Shown: piece by piece, positions 24,488-52,006 of the stretch
Layout: each line of letters opens with the position of its first letter
How positions within the stretch are numbered: the stretch's first letter is position 1
NCBI RefSeq assembly: GCF_004310325.1
Contig: NZ_SIRT01000001.1
Location: forward strand, 310,001 to 374,000
DNA from: Hyunsoonleella flava
GTDB lineage: Bacteria > Bacteroidota > Bacteroidia > Flavobacteriales > Flavobacteriaceae
DNA: 64,000 bases
Direction: 5' to 3'
Translations under genes and position numbers: made by a program
The notes under the pieces: generated by a model
What the model saw: only the letters and a program-made list of their open reading frames with translations
What the model was told of the DNA's origin: nothing
Database searches by the model: none

Positions 24488-24541
24488 ATGACTTTTACTC
24501 AAACACATCATCATTTTTACATTTGCTCTCAAGCGAAGTAA
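24488..24541 (+). CDS. hisL: His operon leader peptide with three consecutive His codons
   Basis: A 17-residue ORF, MTFTQTHHHFYICSQAK, lies just after the predicted transcription start and 110 bases before hisG. The three CAT codons are at 24506-24514. Its position, its His run, and the mutually exclusive hairpins that follow it fit a ribosome-stalling leader for histidine attenuation. The enteric hisL has seven His in a row; this one has three. Confidence 0.85.
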   Translation: MTFTQTHHHFYICSQAK

Positions 24542-24603
24542 AGATGTATTGAGTAAAATCAACATATATTTAAACCCGTTTGAGACTTTCAAGCGGGTTT
24601 TTT
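24493..24603 (+). promoter_or_regulatory. Histidine attenuator (alternative RNA pairings)
   Basis: Four segments can be paired by eye. TTTTACTCAA (24493-24502) is a perfect complement of TTGAGTAAAA (24549-24558). TCTCAAGCG (24527-24535) complements CGTTTGAGA (24577-24585) with one G-U, which would be the antiterminator. The terminator itself uses 24572-24583 with 24589-24600. A ribosome stalled at the His codons frees 24527-24535 to block the terminator; one that reaches the stop at 24539 covers that segment and lets the terminator form. The pairing model is inferred from complementarity only. Confidence 0.8.
24572..24603 (+). terminator. Terminator arm of the his attenuator
   Basis: AAACCCGTTTGA pairs with TCAAGCGGGTTT (12 bp, one G-U) around a GACTT loop, ending in six T. 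It lies 49 bases before hisG. Confidence 0.85.
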
Positions 24604-24651
24604 AATTGAAATAAAAACGCTTAATAGTTTCAAACTCATAAAAAAGATAAC

Positions 24652-25509
24652 ATGAGTAAATTAAGAATTGCAGTACAGAAATCAGGCAGATTGAATGAAG
24701 ATTCAATGCGGTTGTTAAAAGATATTGGTATTTCTATTGATAACGGAAAAGACCAACTAAAAGCTTCGGCTAAAGGTTTTCCGGTTGAAGTGTTCTACCT
24801 GAGAAATGGAGATATTCCTCAATATTTAAAGGATGGCGTTGTGGATGCGGCCATTATCGGAGAGAATGTATTAATCGAAAAAGGAGAGGGTATTGGTGTT
24901 GTTGAAAAACTAGGCTTTTCTTCCTGCCGCGTGTGTATTGCTGTACCAAAAGCTTATAACTATAATAGTATAAAGGATCTCGAAGGGAAGCGTATTGCCA
25001 CTTCCTATCCAAATACAGTTAAAACGTACTTAGATGAAAATGGGGTGAATGCTAATTTGCATATAATAAACGGTTCAGTTGAAATAGCGCCAAACATAGG
25101 TTTAGCAGATGCCATTTGCGACATTGTTTCCAGCGGAAGCACCTTATTTAAAAACAATTTAAAAGAGGTGGATACCATTTTAAAATCTGAAGCAGTTTTG
25201 GCGGTGTCTCCAAAGTTAAATGAAGAAAGGAAGGCTATTTTAGAAATCATCCAATTTAGAATTCAGTCCGTTTTAAAAGGGAGACAGTCAAAATACGTGT
25301 TGTTAAATGCACCAAATGATAAGGTACAGGATATCATAGATATTTTACCAGGGATGAAAAGCCCAACAGTATTGCCATTGGCAGAAAAAGGGTGGAGTTC
25401 GATACATTCGGTAATAAGTAAAAATGAATTTTGGAGCGTAATTGATGAATTAAAGGCTAATGGTGCTCAAGGTATTTTAGTTTGTCCAATCGAAAAAATG
25501 GTACTGTAA
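24652..25509 (+). CDS. hisG: ATP phosphoribosyltransferase (long form)
   Basis: First, feedback-regulated step of histidine synthesis: joins PRPP and ATP. It is 285 residues, the long HisG form with its own C-terminal regulatory domain (about 210-285), so no hisZ is expected and none is seen. Family stretches are LRIAVQKSGRLNEDSMRLL, RIATSYPNTVKTYLDENG and the PRPP-site DAICDIVSSGSTLFKNNL. First structural gene after the attenuator; one base separates it from hisD. Confidence 0.96.
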   Translation: MSKLRIAVQKSGRLNEDSMRLLKDIGISIDNGKDQLKASAKGFPVEVFYLRNGDIPQYLKDGVVDAAIIGENVLIEKGEGIGVVEKLGFSSCRVCIAVPKAYNYNSIKDLEGKRIATSYPNTVKTYLDENGVNANLHIINGSVEIAPNIGLADAICDIVSSGSTLFKNNLKEVDTILKSEAVLAVSPKLNEERKAILEIIQFRIQSVLKGRQSKYVLLNAPNDKVQDIIDILPGMKSPTVLPLAEKGWSSIHSVISKNEFWSVIDELKANGAQGILVCPIEKMVL

Positions 25510-35810: not shown

Positions 35811-35904
35811 TTTTGGGCGTGCCCCCTTCTTAGGTCGGGGTCGGGCTTTCCGCTATATCTTTTTCTCGTGGCTCAAAAAAGGATGCCGCTGCAATCCCTC
35901 ACGC
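35811..35904 (-). repeat. Dispersed intergenic element, copy B
   Basis: On the minus strand it begins GCGTGAGGGATTGCAGCGGC and ends GGGGGCACGCCCAAA, with GGAAAGCCCGACCCC inside, matching copies A and C. It follows the mscS-operon terminator. The rest of the 35719-36024 gap holds nothing else recognisable. Confidence 0.78.
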
Positions 35905-36024
35905 GGGCAAGTTTGCTTAGGTCATAGCTCAAACTTTAAATTAGGTTTAAATCTACAAATACAAATCACTAAAACAATAACCTACTTTTTGTATTTTAGA
36001 ACAATATTAATTCAGATAGCAATC

Positions 36025-47051: not shown

Positions 47052-48347
47052 TTATTTTGATAACAAAAAGCTTTTCAAATCCTCATAAATGGAAATACTA
47101 CTAGCTTCTTTAGCTTTACCCATTACCGATTGAATTTGTTTTGGTAAAGGTTGTTTCTCTTTAATAACATCTTCAACTACATCTAAGAACTTCGTTGGAT
47201 GAGCAGTTTCTAAAAACACACAATGCGCATTAGGGTTGTCCTTTAAGTAAGATTTGGAGCCTAAATAGCCCACTGCACCATGAGGATCTGCCACATAATT
47301 GAAATTATTATATATTTCTAACATGGCTTCTTTGGTTTCTTCGTCTGTAAAACTGTAAGAAGACAAGTTGTTCTTTAAATCCTCAAACCGGTTTTTATAA
47401 ATCTCCTGAATACGAATAAAATTACTGGGTGCACCAACATCCATAGCATTGCTTATGGTTTGTATGGATGGTTTTGGTTCGTATAGCTGAGATATTAAAT
47501 AACGGGTTACTACATTGTTTAAGTTGTTAGATGCTATAAAGTGCTTTATCGGCAGGCCTAATTGTTGGGCCATCATACCAGCACAAATATTTCCAAAATT
47601 TCCGCTTGGAACAGAAAACACAATATTATCATATTGTTTATGTAACTGCTTGTAGGCAAACAGAAAATAAAATAATTGTGGTAGCCAACGTGCTACATTT
47701 ATGGAGTTGGCAGAAGTCAATTGCATTTTACTTGTCAATTCTTCATCAAGAAATGCAGTTTTTACCATGGCTTGACAATCGTCAAATGTGCCATTAACTT
47801 CAAGCGCCTTAATGTTTTGTCCAAGCGTCGTCAACTGTTTTTCTTGGATATCACTTACTTTTCCTCTAGGATATAAAATTACCACATTCACACCTTTTAC
47901 ACCTAAGAACCCGTTGGCTACGGCACCTCCAGTATCTCCAGAAGTCGCTACTAAAACGGTCACTTCTTTGTCGTTATCTCGGTTGAAATGGCCCAAACAT
48001 CTTGCCATAAACCGTGCGCCAACATCTTTAAATGCCATTGTAGGACCATGAAATAATTCTAAACTGGAAATGCTATCGTTTAACTTGACTACAGGAAAAT
48101 CAAAGGATAGAGTGTCGCTAACTATTTTTTTTAAAATCTCCTCGGGAATTTCTGGAAGCACAAACTGTTTTATAGCTTCGTACGCCATTTCGGGATAAGA
48201 CAAACTATCAAAACTATCCCAAAATGATTGAGGTAAAGGCGTAATGTTTTCAGGAAAATACAAACCCTTGTCGGGCGCTAAACCTTTAATTACGGCATTT
48301 TTGAAGGTTGAACTTGGTGCTTTTTTATTTAGAGAGTAGTAATTCAT
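47052..48347 (-). CDS. thrC: Threonine synthase
   Basis: PLP enzyme converting phosphohomoserine to threonine. It is 431 residues. The PLP Lys is in HGPTMAFKDVGARFMAR (about residue 107); TSGDTGGAVANGF and the phosphate loop SGNFGNICAGM are intact. One base separates its start from the thrB stop; last gene of the thrABC operon. Confidence 0.96.
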   Translation of the reverse strand: MNYYSLNKKAPSSTFKNAVIKGLAPDKGLYFPENITPLPQSFWDSFDSLSYPEMAYEAIKQFVLPEIPEEILKKIVSDTLSFDFPVVKLNDSISSLELFHGPTMAFKDVGARFMARCLGHFNRDNDKEVTVLVATSGDTGGAVANGFLGVKGVNVVILYPRGKVSDIQEKQLTTLGQNIKALEVNGTFDDCQAMVKTAFLDEELTSKMQLTSANSINVARWLPQLFYFLFAYKQLHKQYDNIVFSVPSGNFGNICAGMMAQQLGLPIKHFIASNNLNNVVTRYLISQLYEPKPSIQTISNAMDVGAPSNFIRIQEIYKNRFEDLKNNLSSYSFTDEETKEAMLEIYNNFNYVADPHGAVGYLGSKSYLKDNPNAHCVFLETAHPTKFLDVVEDVIKEKQPLPKQIQSVMGKAKEASSISIYEDLKSFLLSK

Positions 48348-48348
48348 T

Positions 48349-49272
48349 TTAACCTATGATTTTTACACCTTTGGTATTAATCTTTGAGATATGGATATCG
48401 TAATCAATTACAAGATCCGCATATACATTTTCGAAATTTGCTTTTACATTATTAGCTACATCCAAACCTTTGCTTAATGAAAAAATTGAAGGACCAGAAC
48501 CTGAAATACCGCACCCCAAGGCACCAGCATCAATAGCAGAACTTTTGGCTTCATTAAAAAGCGGTATCAGTTTGCTTCTGTGTGGTTCAATAATCACATC
48601 TTTTAAAGCACTTTTTATCAAATCGTAATCACTGGTATGCAGCGCATGGACTAGACTGCCTAGGTTTGCCCATTGTTCAATGGCGTTGCTTAGCTTAACT
48701 TCTTTTGGAAGCACTGCTCTAGATTCTGATGTTTTAATTTCTATTTGTGGATGAATAATTGTCGCATACAAGTCCTCTGGTGTGGGGATTTCTAACACTT
48801 GTAAGGGTGAGACACTTTTCACTAAAGTGAATCCTCCAAAAAGGGCAGGAGCTAGGTTATCTGCATGTTCGCATTTACTTGCTAACGCTTCCCCTTTTAT
48901 GGCAAACTCGGTCAATTGTGTTTTGTTGAAAGGTCTCCCCAATAGCTCATTCATACCAAAAACACTACCAACTGCACTAGCTGCGCTACTGCCAATACCG
49001 CTTCCAGGTTTTATGTTCTTGTAGATTTCAATTTCAAAACCAAAATCAACTTCTATAGCATTGTACATGGCTATAGCAGAAACTCCAGCAACGTTCAGTT
49101 CGGTTTCAAGTGGTAAATCAAAGCCTTCTACTTTGGTAATGACAATCCCTTTCTTATCAACTTTTCTTATTACCATTTCATCGCCAACTGTATCCAAACA
49201 AAATCCCATAACGTCGAAACCACAGGATACATTGGCTACAGTGGCTGGAGAGAATATTTTTATTTCGTTCAT
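48349..49272 (-). CDS. thrB: Homoserine kinase
   Basis: GHMP kinase that phosphorylates homoserine. It is 307 residues from the ATG at 49272 (MNEIKIFSPATVANVSCGFD), the length expected for the family; an ATG at 49338 adds 22 residues not seen in relatives. The ATP loop is KPGSGIGSSAASAVGSVFG, and the C-terminal GISGSGPSIFSL motif is present. Between thrA and thrC. Confidence 0.95.
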   Translation of the reverse strand: MNEIKIFSPATVANVSCGFDVMGFCLDTVGDEMVIRKVDKKGIVITKVEGFDLPLETELNVAGVSAIAMYNAIEVDFGFEIEIYKNIKPGSGIGSSAASAVGSVFGMNELLGRPFNKTQLTEFAIKGEALASKCEHADNLAPALFGGFTLVKSVSPLQVLEIPTPEDLYATIIHPQIEIKTSESRAVLPKEVKLSNAIEQWANLGSLVHALHTSDYDLIKSALKDVIIEPHRSKLIPLFNEAKSSAIDAGALGCGISGSGPSIFSLSKGLDVANNVKANFENVYADLVIDYDIHISKINTKGVKIIG

Positions 49273-49343
49273 TTTTTCTATTAAATAGTTTTCTGCTGCA
49301 CTAGAGCAGGAAATAGAACTTTCTTTGTGTAACTCCATTTCAA

Positions 49344-51788
49344 TTAATCGTTGCCCAATCTTATAATGTCCGCAAATAGTCCAGAGGCTGTAACATCAGC
49401 ACCAGCGCCAGCACCTTTAACAATCATGGGTTGTTGTGAGTAGCGTTCTGTATAGAACATCACAATGTTATCACTGCCTTCAAGATTATAAAACGGATGT
49501 CCTTCAGGAATTTCCTGTAAACCTACACTTGCTTTCCCATTATCAAATTTGGCTACATATTTTAACTGCGCATTTTTCGTTTTTGCGGATGCATATAACG
49601 CTTGGTAATGGGTTTCGTCGGCAATGAGTGTTTTGTAAAACTCTTCAACTGTGCCACTTTCTTGACCAGAAGGCGATAAAAATGATGTGTTTTCTATGTC
49701 CTCTAAATTCATTTCAACCCCACTTTCCCTGGCAAGAATTAGGATCTTACGTGCTACATCAACACCACTTAAATCAATTCTTGGGTCTGGTTCTGTATAA
49801 CCTTCAGCACCAGCTTGCTTTACTACGTCGTAAAACTTAGTGGAATCATTAAAATTATTGAAAACAAAGTTTAAACTACCAGACAATACGGCTTGAATTG
49901 AAGTAACTTTATCTCCTGAGGCCACCAAATTATTCAATGTGTCAATAATAGGTAAACCTGCGCCAACATTGGTTTCAAATAAAAATGGCGCATTGTATTT
50001 TAATGACAAACGTTTCAACTCTTTATAATTAGCAAAATCACTAGAACATGCAATTTTGTTACATGCCACTACAGCGATACTTTCTCTTAAGTAATTGGCA
50101 TATAAACTAGCCACATCTGCGTTTGCAGTAACATCTACAAAAATACTATTGCGCAGATTTAATGCTTTTGATTTTTCGAAAAACCCTTGCAATGATGCTT
50201 TTTCTCCATCTGCCAACAAAGATTTCCAATGTTTTAAAGGAATACCACTTTCATCAAAAACCATCGTTCTAGAGTTAGATAGTCCCGTAACACGGAGATT
50301 GATTTTAAGGTTTTCCTTGAGGTATTTTTTTTGTTGTCTTATTTGTTCGACCAAGCGTTCTCCAACATTTCCAACACCTGTAATGAAGACGTTGAGTTGC
50401 TTTGTGATGCTTTCAAAAAACACTTCATGCAAGGTGTTTAATGCTTTTTTCACGTCGCTATCTTCAATAACTATAGATATATTTCGCTCTGAAGCACCTT
50501 GGGCAATAGCTCTAATATTGATATTATTTTTTCCTAAAGAAGAGAACATTTTACCACTAATACCTTGATGGTTCTTCATATTATCGCCAACAAGTGCTAC
50601 AATGGACAAACCGGTTTCAACGGTTAGAGGTTCTATTTTGTGCAAAGCGATTTCATTTTCAAAAGTAATATCGATGGCGGTTTTTGCAATTTCAACATCT
50701 TTTTCTTCAATACCCAAACAAATGGAATGTTCTGAAGAGGCTTGAGTAATTAAAATCACATTTATTTTTTCATTGGAAAGTGTTTCAAATAAACGTTTTG
50801 AAAACCCAGGAATTCCAACCATACCGCTACCTTCAAGCGTCAGTAAAGCTATATTTGAGATATTACTAATGCCTTTCACTGGTGAACTGGTGCCGTTTGC
50901 ATCTTTGGAAATTATTGTACCCACAGCTTCAGGTGCCATAGTATTTTTAATGTGAATAGGAATCTCTAAATCCAACACAGGTTGTACCGTTGGAGGATAT
51001 AATACCTTAGCCCCAAAATGAGACAGTTCCATAGCTTCTTGATACGAAATAGTCTTGATTGGATATGCTTGTTTTACCATTTTTGGGTTTGTTGTAAACA
51101 TACCGCTAACATCCGTCCAAATCTCTAACTGTTCTACCTTTAGAGCAGCAGCCACAATTGCCGCAGTAAAATCTGAACCGCCTCTGCCTAAAGTGGTTTG
51201 CTCCCCAAGGGCAGAATTTGCAATGAATCCTGGAAGAATCGTTATACTTTCTTCAGCTGATTCAAAATAACGCTTAATATTGCTATTGGTTACTTTATAA
51301 TCTACTTCGGCTTTTGTGAAATTTGAATTGGTAACGACTAGCTCTTGCGAATTCTTTCTAGTTGCTGACAAACCTCTGTTTTTCATTGTTTCAGCAATAA
51401 TGTAAGATGACAATAACTCTCCAAAGCTCACCAATTTATCTGATGTTTTTGGGGATACTTCGTTTATAAGAAAGATACCCTCCAATAAACTATGAAGCGC
51501 ACCTAATTTTTCTTCAGCGTAAGCTAAAATCCCCTCATTGTTTTCGGGGTTTAATTCTTTAATTATTGAAAAATGGGTAGACTTGATAGTCTCAAAAGTA
51601 TCATTAAAACTTGCATCTTTTGCCTGTGCTTGTCTTCCTGCAAGCAGCAGTTTGTCAGTGATACCACCAACAGCCGAAACTACGCATGCTACTTTACCTT
51701 CTTTTGAATAAGTATCGAGAATACTTATGACTTTATTTATGTTTTTTGAGGAACCTACTGAAGTTCCACCGAATTTTAAAACCTTCAT
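49344..51788 (-). CDS. thrA: Bifunctional aspartokinase / homoserine dehydrogenase
   Basis: First and third steps from aspartate to homoserine. It is 814 residues. The kinase (about 1-290) has VLKFGGTSVGSSKNI and TTLGRGGSDFTAAIVA. Two ACT-type regulatory repeats (about 310-460) read VMVG-like GSGMVGIPGFSKRLFE and ALVGDNMKNHQGISGKMF. The dehydrogenase (about 465-814) has ITGVGNVGERLVEQI and ETNVGAGLPIIDTLNNL. The ACT pair predicts threonine feedback. Expression is probably under a Thr-rich leader (51871-51978). Confidence 0.97.
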   Translation of the reverse strand: MKVLKFGGTSVGSSKNINKVISILDTYSKEGKVACVVSAVGGITDKLLLAGRQAQAKDASFNDTFETIKSTHFSIIKELNPENNEGILAYAEEKLGALHSLLEGIFLINEVSPKTSDKLVSFGELLSSYIIAETMKNRGLSATRKNSQELVVTNSNFTKAEVDYKVTNSNIKRYFESAEESITILPGFIANSALGEQTTLGRGGSDFTAAIVAAALKVEQLEIWTDVSGMFTTNPKMVKQAYPIKTISYQEAMELSHFGAKVLYPPTVQPVLDLEIPIHIKNTMAPEAVGTIISKDANGTSSPVKGISNISNIALLTLEGSGMVGIPGFSKRLFETLSNEKINVILITQASSEHSICLGIEEKDVEIAKTAIDITFENEIALHKIEPLTVETGLSIVALVGDNMKNHQGISGKMFSSLGKNNINIRAIAQGASERNISIVIEDSDVKKALNTLHEVFFESITKQLNVFITGVGNVGERLVEQIRQQKKYLKENLKINLRVTGLSNSRTMVFDESGIPLKHWKSLLADGEKASLQGFFEKSKALNLRNSIFVDVTANADVASLYANYLRESIAVVACNKIACSSDFANYKELKRLSLKYNAPFLFETNVGAGLPIIDTLNNLVASGDKVTSIQAVLSGSLNFVFNNFNDSTKFYDVVKQAGAEGYTEPDPRIDLSGVDVARKILILARESGVEMNLEDIENTSFLSPSGQESGTVEEFYKTLIADETHYQALYASAKTKNAQLKYVAKFDNGKASVGLQEIPEGHPFYNLEGSDNIVMFYTERYSQQPMIVKGAGAGADVTASGLFADIIRLGND

Positions 51789-51870
51789 TATGTAATGAAT
51801 TGATATTTAAATGTAAAATTTGAAAGGGATGTAATTGTAAAATTACATGAAAAGCCGGAATAATATATAA

Positions 51871-51978
51871 CTAATAACCCCAAAGGGTTGTTGTATTTGT
51901 AGTTGTAGCTAAAATAGAAACAGTGCTTGCAGATATTGAAAACACAGTTGGATAATTATTTTGGCTTAAATGAATCAT
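51871..51978 (-). CDS. thrL: Threonine-rich leader peptide of the thr operon
   Basis: A 35-codon ORF 82 bases before thrA, just after a TACTTTTG promoter box. Eight of 35 residues are Thr, six of them in the run ATTTNTTTLWGY near the end; three are Ile. The layout matches the enteric thrL, where stalling at Thr/Ile codons controls termination. A small hairpin AACCC/GGGTT overlaps the last codons. A classical T-rich terminator is not evident downstream, so the mechanism is unproven. Confidence 0.75.
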   Translation of the reverse strand: MIHLSQNNYPTVFSISASTVSILATTTNTTTLWGY

Positions 51979-51998
51979 TTTCGTTATATAAAACACCT

Positions 51999-52006
51999 CA
52001 AAAGTA
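51999..52006 (-). promoter_or_regulatory. -7 promoter box of the thr operon
   Basis: On the minus strand TACTTTTG (TAnnTTTG), 20 bases before the leader ATG. A TTTG lies 23 bases further upstream, slightly beyond the usual spacing. The remainder of the 51789-52128 gap is the thr leader and, from 52007 on, AT-rich DNA with nothing else seen. Confidence 0.5.

Follow-up and report, generated by a model that had tools for sequence, protein, structure and literature searches.

In enteric bacteria, thrABC is directly preceded by thrL, a short leader ORF with many Thr and Ile codons that senses Thr plus Ile. The element described here resembles thrL in being a short Thr/Ile-rich leader before thrABC, with its regulatory codons near the end of the peptide. 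It differs in that it has no GC hairpin with a U-run, that no alternative antiterminator was found, and that the leader stop codon falls in or beside its GC hairpin. Vitreschak and co-workers reportedly predicted attenuators in some Bacteroidetes in 2004. The survey of Naville and Gautheret (2010; PMC2965389), in the portion accessible, began from Rho-independent terminators; to those authors' knowledge, leader peptide systems had previously been shown only in Proteobacteria and Actinobacteria, the ermC leader aside, before their Firmicutes case.

For Flavobacterium psychrophilum, the accessible part of Guerin et al. (2021; PMC9723704) finds "strong clues" that operons for amino acids are attenuated through leader peptides encoded ahead of them, and describes structured 5′ elements at several genes, pheA and hisG among them. 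That organism shares a TAnnTTTG-type promoter and the Flavo-1 RNA with the DNA studied here, two features that point to an origin of this DNA in or near the Flavobacteriaceae. The report concerns transcriptional elongation, and thrA, thrB, thrC and threonine are absent from its main text as accessible. The toiL uORF upstream of topAI in E. coli is also a ribosome-stalling leader ORF that controls the next gene with Rho involved, but from the accessible part of its description (PMC12121999) it senses antibiotics, controls translation of the next gene directly, and has Rho acting inside that gene. Our literature search for a Bacteroidetes thr leader, with subscription papers mostly outside its scope, returned no title or abstract opening that describes the present element.

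The window (the whole stretch of 64,000 nucleotides of Hyunsoonleella flava DNA that was analysed) carries the thr operon on its minus strand: thrA, encoding bifunctional aspartate kinase/homoserine dehydrogenase I (49344-51788; NF006959, 1031 bits), thrB, encoding homoserine kinase (48349-49338; TIGR00191, the family match beginning at ORF residue 27), and thrC, encoding threonine synthase (47052-48347; TIGR00260). Upstream, also on the minus strand, lies a leader ORF of 35 codons plus stop (51871-51978), with its ATG at 51978 and its stop at 51873-51871. It encodes MIHLSQNNYPTVFSISASTVSILATTTNTTTLWGY, which has eight Thr and ends in TTTNTTTLWGY. The leader ATG is 20 nt downstream of a TAnnTTTG-type promoter −7 box, TACTTTTG (51999-52006, minus strand), which is kept in the alignment of close relatives. 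Between the leader and the thrA ATG at 51788 there are 82 nt, which is also the median among the leaders analysed. An earlier note on this DNA had placed a 35-codon ORF with eight Thr between the TACTTTTG box and thrABC, and this description is confirmed, with all of its coordinates.

With the first 200 residues of ThrA as query, matches were found in 117 of 149 genomes of the family and 11 of 12 of the genus. Regions upstream of 99 thrA loci were taken, the window's own included. A script recovered a leader in 83 of the 99, and removal of three spurious or off-pattern cases (L071, L080, L084) left 80. These were joined by 30 close relatives from a pattern search (58 of 397 genomes, partly overlapping), giving 110 leaders for analysis; a second pattern search matched 10 of 397 genomes. 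Five further leaders recognised by eye (L063, L073, L076, L086, L094) were added for a terminator census of 115. The near set of 64 close relatives excludes L128, L134, L149 and L150, which were duplicates or not thr leaders of the window's type, and a distant set of 43 loci leaves out L070 and rows without the promoter box.

Threonine makes up 36.9% of the last 12 codons of the 110 leaders, against 12.9% of the rest of the peptide, and its share in the other two frames is 1.6% and 0.08%. At least three of the last 12 codons are Thr in 99 of the 110, with a median of five, while shuffled bases give 0.81 per 12 codons. The leader is exactly 35 codons long in 55 of the 64 close relatives. Codons 25-31 of the window's leader (TTTNTTT; 51886-51906, minus strand) are Thr or Ile in relatives: among the 55 leaders of 35 codons, Thr plus Ile account for codon 25 in 49, codon 26 in 47, codon 27 in 53, codon 29 in 52, codon 30 in 54 and codon 31 in all 55. 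ACA, ACT, ACC and ACG all occur in this run. The C-terminal run is held at the amino-acid level, as Thr or Ile, via synonymous changes. The alignment of related genomes that the earlier note had called for thus found the Thr codons conserved, as Thr or Ile, in 47 to 55 of the 55 leaders at codons 25-27 and 29-31. On this comparative evidence the thr leader is real and is conserved over much of the family; we infer its translation from the conservation of its frame. As in ribosome-mediated attenuators of the thrL/hisL class, a short conserved ORF with cognate codons precedes the cognate operon. Four loci (L025, L049, L053, L056) seem to have lost the whole leader and kept a promoter-like box, which counts against an attenuator.

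No U-run terminator was found in the 82 nt between the window's leader and thrA. Our scan covered 200 nt before thrA and looked for a stem of at least five pairs, at least three of them G-C, with at least six T in eight. It was passed at four of the 99 thrA loci (L060, L065, L086, L094), at none of the 64 close relatives and not in the window. L086 and L094 have textbook U-run terminators, and L060 and L065 have hairpin A (described below) followed by a T-rich stretch. The same four pass in the leader-based census of 115, where 27, the window among them via hairpin A, pass at five T of eight, and 11 pass when two G-C pairs are allowed. Leaders were partly recognised by hairpin A, so this census is biased against the classical kind; the scan of all 99 loci repeated it without hairpin-A selection. 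As the window passes the relaxed five-T scan through hairpin A, A may act as a weak intrinsic stop.

The same scan detects the terminators of the his and Phe/Tyr leaders in the window's genome, both with strong U-runs, so the missing terminator at thr is not trivial. The claim that no classical terminator follows the thr leader is therefore upheld: the U-run is missing at 95 of the 99 thrA loci and present at the his and Phe/Tyr leaders, and the intrinsic terminator of the thrL/hisL class is absent from the window's thr leader. Those two leaders are likewise short ORFs that precede the cognate gene and carry codons for its amino acid, but they have strong terminators and fold far better than shuffles (z −7.7 for his and −5.6 for Phe/Tyr, well beyond the thr values given below). 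Within the family, the thr operon appears to have two kinds of attenuator, the classical U-run kind of L086 and L094 and that of the window. Their occurrence at the same place points to a shared function.

A GC hairpin lies in the last codons of the leader. Hairpin A (AACCC UUUG GGGUU; 51876-51889, minus strand) was missed by the earlier note; as DNA it reads AACCC-TTTG-GGGTT (51889-51876), and with five T in the eight bases of its tail it looks terminator-like in a simple scan. Four of its six pairs are invariant in the 64 relatives, and two of six have changed on both sides. The 5′ arm includes an ACC Thr codon in the leader frame, and in 58 of 58 aligned loci the first codon of A is ACC in that frame. 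The stop codon follows the first base of A by 6 nt (12 loci), 12 nt (19), 15 nt (21), 18 nt (2), 24 nt (3) or 27 nt (1), the shortest spacings putting it within the hairpin loop. Judged by the size of a ribosome footprint, A would therefore lie at least partly under the ribosome both during termination and during a stall on the last Thr codons. The ubiquity of A is not independent evidence, since A near the stop formed part of the leader-recognition pattern; neither the ACC frame nor the motif downstream of A was part of that pattern. That motif is TCCG, about 17 nt after A, represented in the window by UUAUUCCGG after the stop (51855-51863, minus strand). Of 58 loci, 27 have a TCCG 8-30 nt beyond A, most commonly at 16-18 nt, whereas shuffling would give 1.9; for relaxed forms the count is 50 of 58, with 16.1 expected. 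Pairing of the 3′ arm of A with this motif was rejected (−3.22 for own partners, −3.47 for shuffled).

RNA helices of the leader were sought with a swap test, which sets the duplex energy of two segments of the same genome against the energies obtained when the partner comes from a different one. For the near set, with 2850 window pairs, the highest positive z was 4.1; relatedness inflates these values, so the positive tail served as the yardstick. Two helices lie inside the leader ORF. Helix E joins AGCCAAAAUA (51957-51966) to UAUUUUAGCU (51907-51916; swap z −7.4), with changes on both sides at six of nine pairs, in small numbers. Hairpin C joins GUGUUU (51940-51945) to AAGCAC (51923-51928; swap z −10.2), with changes on both sides at all eight of eight pairs. 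Between leader and thrA is hairpin B, AUGUAAUU UUAC AAUUACAU (51829-51848), with arms ATGTAATT (51848-51841) and AATTACAT (51836-51829), −4.2 kcal/mol and z −7.5 against shuffles. Its swap z is −10.3 in the near set, and five of eight pairs have changed on both sides. In the 43 distant loci it is the strongest pair (z −6.5; opposite tail 3.8). The 8-bp hairpin that the earlier note had drawn between 51829-51836 and 51841-51848 is thus present, and its two arms pair in 63 of the 64 close relatives. All of these arms are on the minus strand.

A fourth helix, D1, joins UAUAUAAC in the leader 5′UTR (51983-51990, minus strand) to GUUAUAUA directly after the stop (51864-51871, minus strand; swap z −5.9). 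It reaches at least 8 bp in 24 of 64 relatives, against 15.0 (sd 2.3) with swapped partners and a swapped maximum of 22 in 2000. At the 6-bp level there is no enrichment (45 of 64 against 42.7 swapped), many close relatives have no D1, and it was not recovered as a group among the 43 distant loci. In our alignment A1, five of its eight pairs have changed on both sides. We keep D1 as a partial, clade-limited candidate. Over the helix pairs counted on A1 together, 84.4% of cells are paired, against 79.1% when shuffled and 40-47% when slid. Two further window pairs in the distant loci exceed the opposite tail of 3.8 and may be the counterpart of helix E: one joins the leader start to positions 24-10 nt ahead of A (z −4.3), the other joins the early codons to the final ones ahead of A (z −4.4). 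Three other candidates were set aside: the 5′ arm of helix E with the invariant hairpin A (z −4.7, an energy difference of only 0.05 kcal/mol), a hairpin in the leader 5′UTR (z −2.3 at best), and, in the distant set, the early codons with sequence downstream of A (z −3.7 against an opposite tail of 3.8).

The window's minimum-energy fold holds D1, E, C, A and B. The covarying helices are mutually compatible, and hairpin A is so nearly invariant that covariation cannot assess it. No mutually exclusive second partner that could serve as an antiterminator was found among the covarying helices, which counts against a classical two-state switch. The whole leader RNA folds with z −1.45 against shuffles, and the stretch closed by D1 with −2.0, and these low values also count against an attenuator.

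The comparison brought out the 35-codon leader, its Thr/Ile run, helix E, hairpins C, A and B, and the lack of a U-run. What we would build on them is a masking switch with an off state that needs no U-run. We see an even chance that the element is a Thr- (probably also Ile-) sensing leader-peptide attenuator of thrABC, in which the ribosome masks hairpin A and the off step works without a normal U-run. When charged tRNA-Thr is ample, the ribosome would clear the run, halt at the stop codon, which lies within or beside A, and depart, and A would fold. When it is scarce, the ribosome would stall on the Thr codons that abut and include the 5′ arm of A, and A would be blocked. Folded A, together with the conserved AU-rich/TCCG tail, might then cause early release of RNA polymerase without a normal U-run, through a weak intrinsic stop where the polymerase pauses, possibly with help from Rho. 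The candidates for the off step are weak intrinsic, Rho or translational. As a stalled ribosome would prevent A from folding, stalling should raise thrABC expression. Footprint arithmetic counts against masking, since a ribosome halted as early as codon 25 or 26, the first of the Thr codons, would leave A free to fold. A broader and more doubtful proposal is that a U-run-independent attenuator of this kind is used across the family, with the stop codon in or beside a short GC hairpin, the ribosome as antiterminator and the polymerase paused or released at TCCG about 17 nt downstream, in a genome that has classical U-run attenuators for other amino acids.

The earlier note had proposed that stalling controls translation of thrA, because the upstream arm of hairpin B could instead pair with ATTACAT just before the thrA ATG. 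ATTACAT is present in the window (51796-51790), but it stands before thrA in only 2 of 64 close relatives. The upstream arm of B forms at least 6 bp with the 15 nt before thrA in 9 of 64, near the 6.7 (sd 1.3) obtained with swapped partners, and the B arms keep pairing with each other in 63 of 64. We therefore reject this particular switch; of the proposal, the leader with Thr codons and the lack of a classical terminator stand, and the pairing, which is neither conserved nor covarying, falls. Translational control of thrA might instead use another pairing: the leader ribosome would alter access to the thrA start through any partner, perhaps with secondary Rho polarity inside thrA, as in toiL-topAI. 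The missing U-run terminator in the window would suit such control, as would the conservation of hairpin B between leader and thrA, and the accessible part of the toiL report (PMC12121999) offers a precedent in which a leader ORF, Rho and the translation of the downstream gene are tied together. Over 61 loci and 596 window pairs, neither the thrA start nor the codons that open the gene covaried with any upstream window (z no lower than −2.7, with an opposite tail of +3.8). A start region sequestered by a leader-RNA helix, as in erm/cat-type systems, was accordingly not seen, in a covariation test to which an invariant partner is invisible. On balance we consider translational control unlikely.

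Attenuation might instead depend on Rho, with hairpin A not the decision point: Rho would load on the linker RNA from leader to thrA, which is rich in C and poor in G, at a moment set by the ribosome on the leader. The stretch from stop to thrA has a C/G ratio of 2.32 against a background of 1.01, and C exceeds G at 105 of the 108 loci, compared with 15 of 28 stretches upstream of ORFs in the window, a background taken from one window and unmatched for being transcribed. The likeness to tna/toiL-type leaders, where a C-rich, G-poor stretch precedes the gene, is weak and one of composition only, and G-poverty may merely keep the linker unfolded. Moreover, this stretch is equally bare whether the ribosome has finished the leader or has halted on the Thr run, so the sign of the response would go unexplained; we find Rho without a role for A rather improbable. 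One might also suppose that there is no switch at all, that the leader is translated for another reason, such as ribosome supply to thrA or RNA stability, and that the Thr run is incidental. Leader genes near structural genes have been proposed to boost translation by reinitiation, with a Bacteroidetes peak at 11-14 bp (PMC4833913, as far as its text was accessible). The 82-nt spacing here is far from that peak, the Thr/Ile identity is strongly kept and frame-specific, and the leader precedes its cognate operon, all of which make an incidental run very improbable.

If the masking attenuator is real, leader-peptide attenuation needs no hairpin plus U-run, the feature by which such elements are searched for, and surveys based on terminators would miss them. 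One genome would also offer a clean test of what makes the thr design differ from that of his and Phe/Tyr. The his operon attenuator is a textbook one (24488-24654, plus strand), with the leader MTFTQTHHHFYICSQAK at 24488-24541, a 10-bp helix (TTTTACTCAA/TTGAGTAAAA) around the His codons, a U-run terminator at 24573-24603 and hisG at 24652. The Phe/Tyr leader, MRTTTYYTYFNFFYFFFSREIETLCV, lies elsewhere in the genome (L163, about 1354-1495), upstream of the prephenate dehydratase gene and with a U-run terminator. No leader was seen at ilvD of this genome in the region examined.

A second TAnnTTTG box lies over hairpin B in 30 of 64 close relatives (A1 columns about 166-200) and is absent from the window; it occurs in 1 of 11 loci of the window's genus and is possibly an internal thrA promoter. 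At five loci (L068, L071, L074, L082, L084), the thrA matches have GTG or TTG starts and no such leader, and thrA directly follows another ORF ending in ..ELFQFLV or similar, presumably ilvA-like. A covariance model of the leader, R1, matched 9 of 148 genomes of the order, all within the window's own family and with one match each; it has little structure (two pairs) and low sensitivity, and cannot demonstrate absence elsewhere. With the Rfam covariance models over the window, the thr operon leader (which we take to be RF00506) was not matched, and only Flavo-1 reached its gathering score: a Flavo-1 RNA (RF01705) lies at 35835-35913 on the minus strand, with 52.2 bits.
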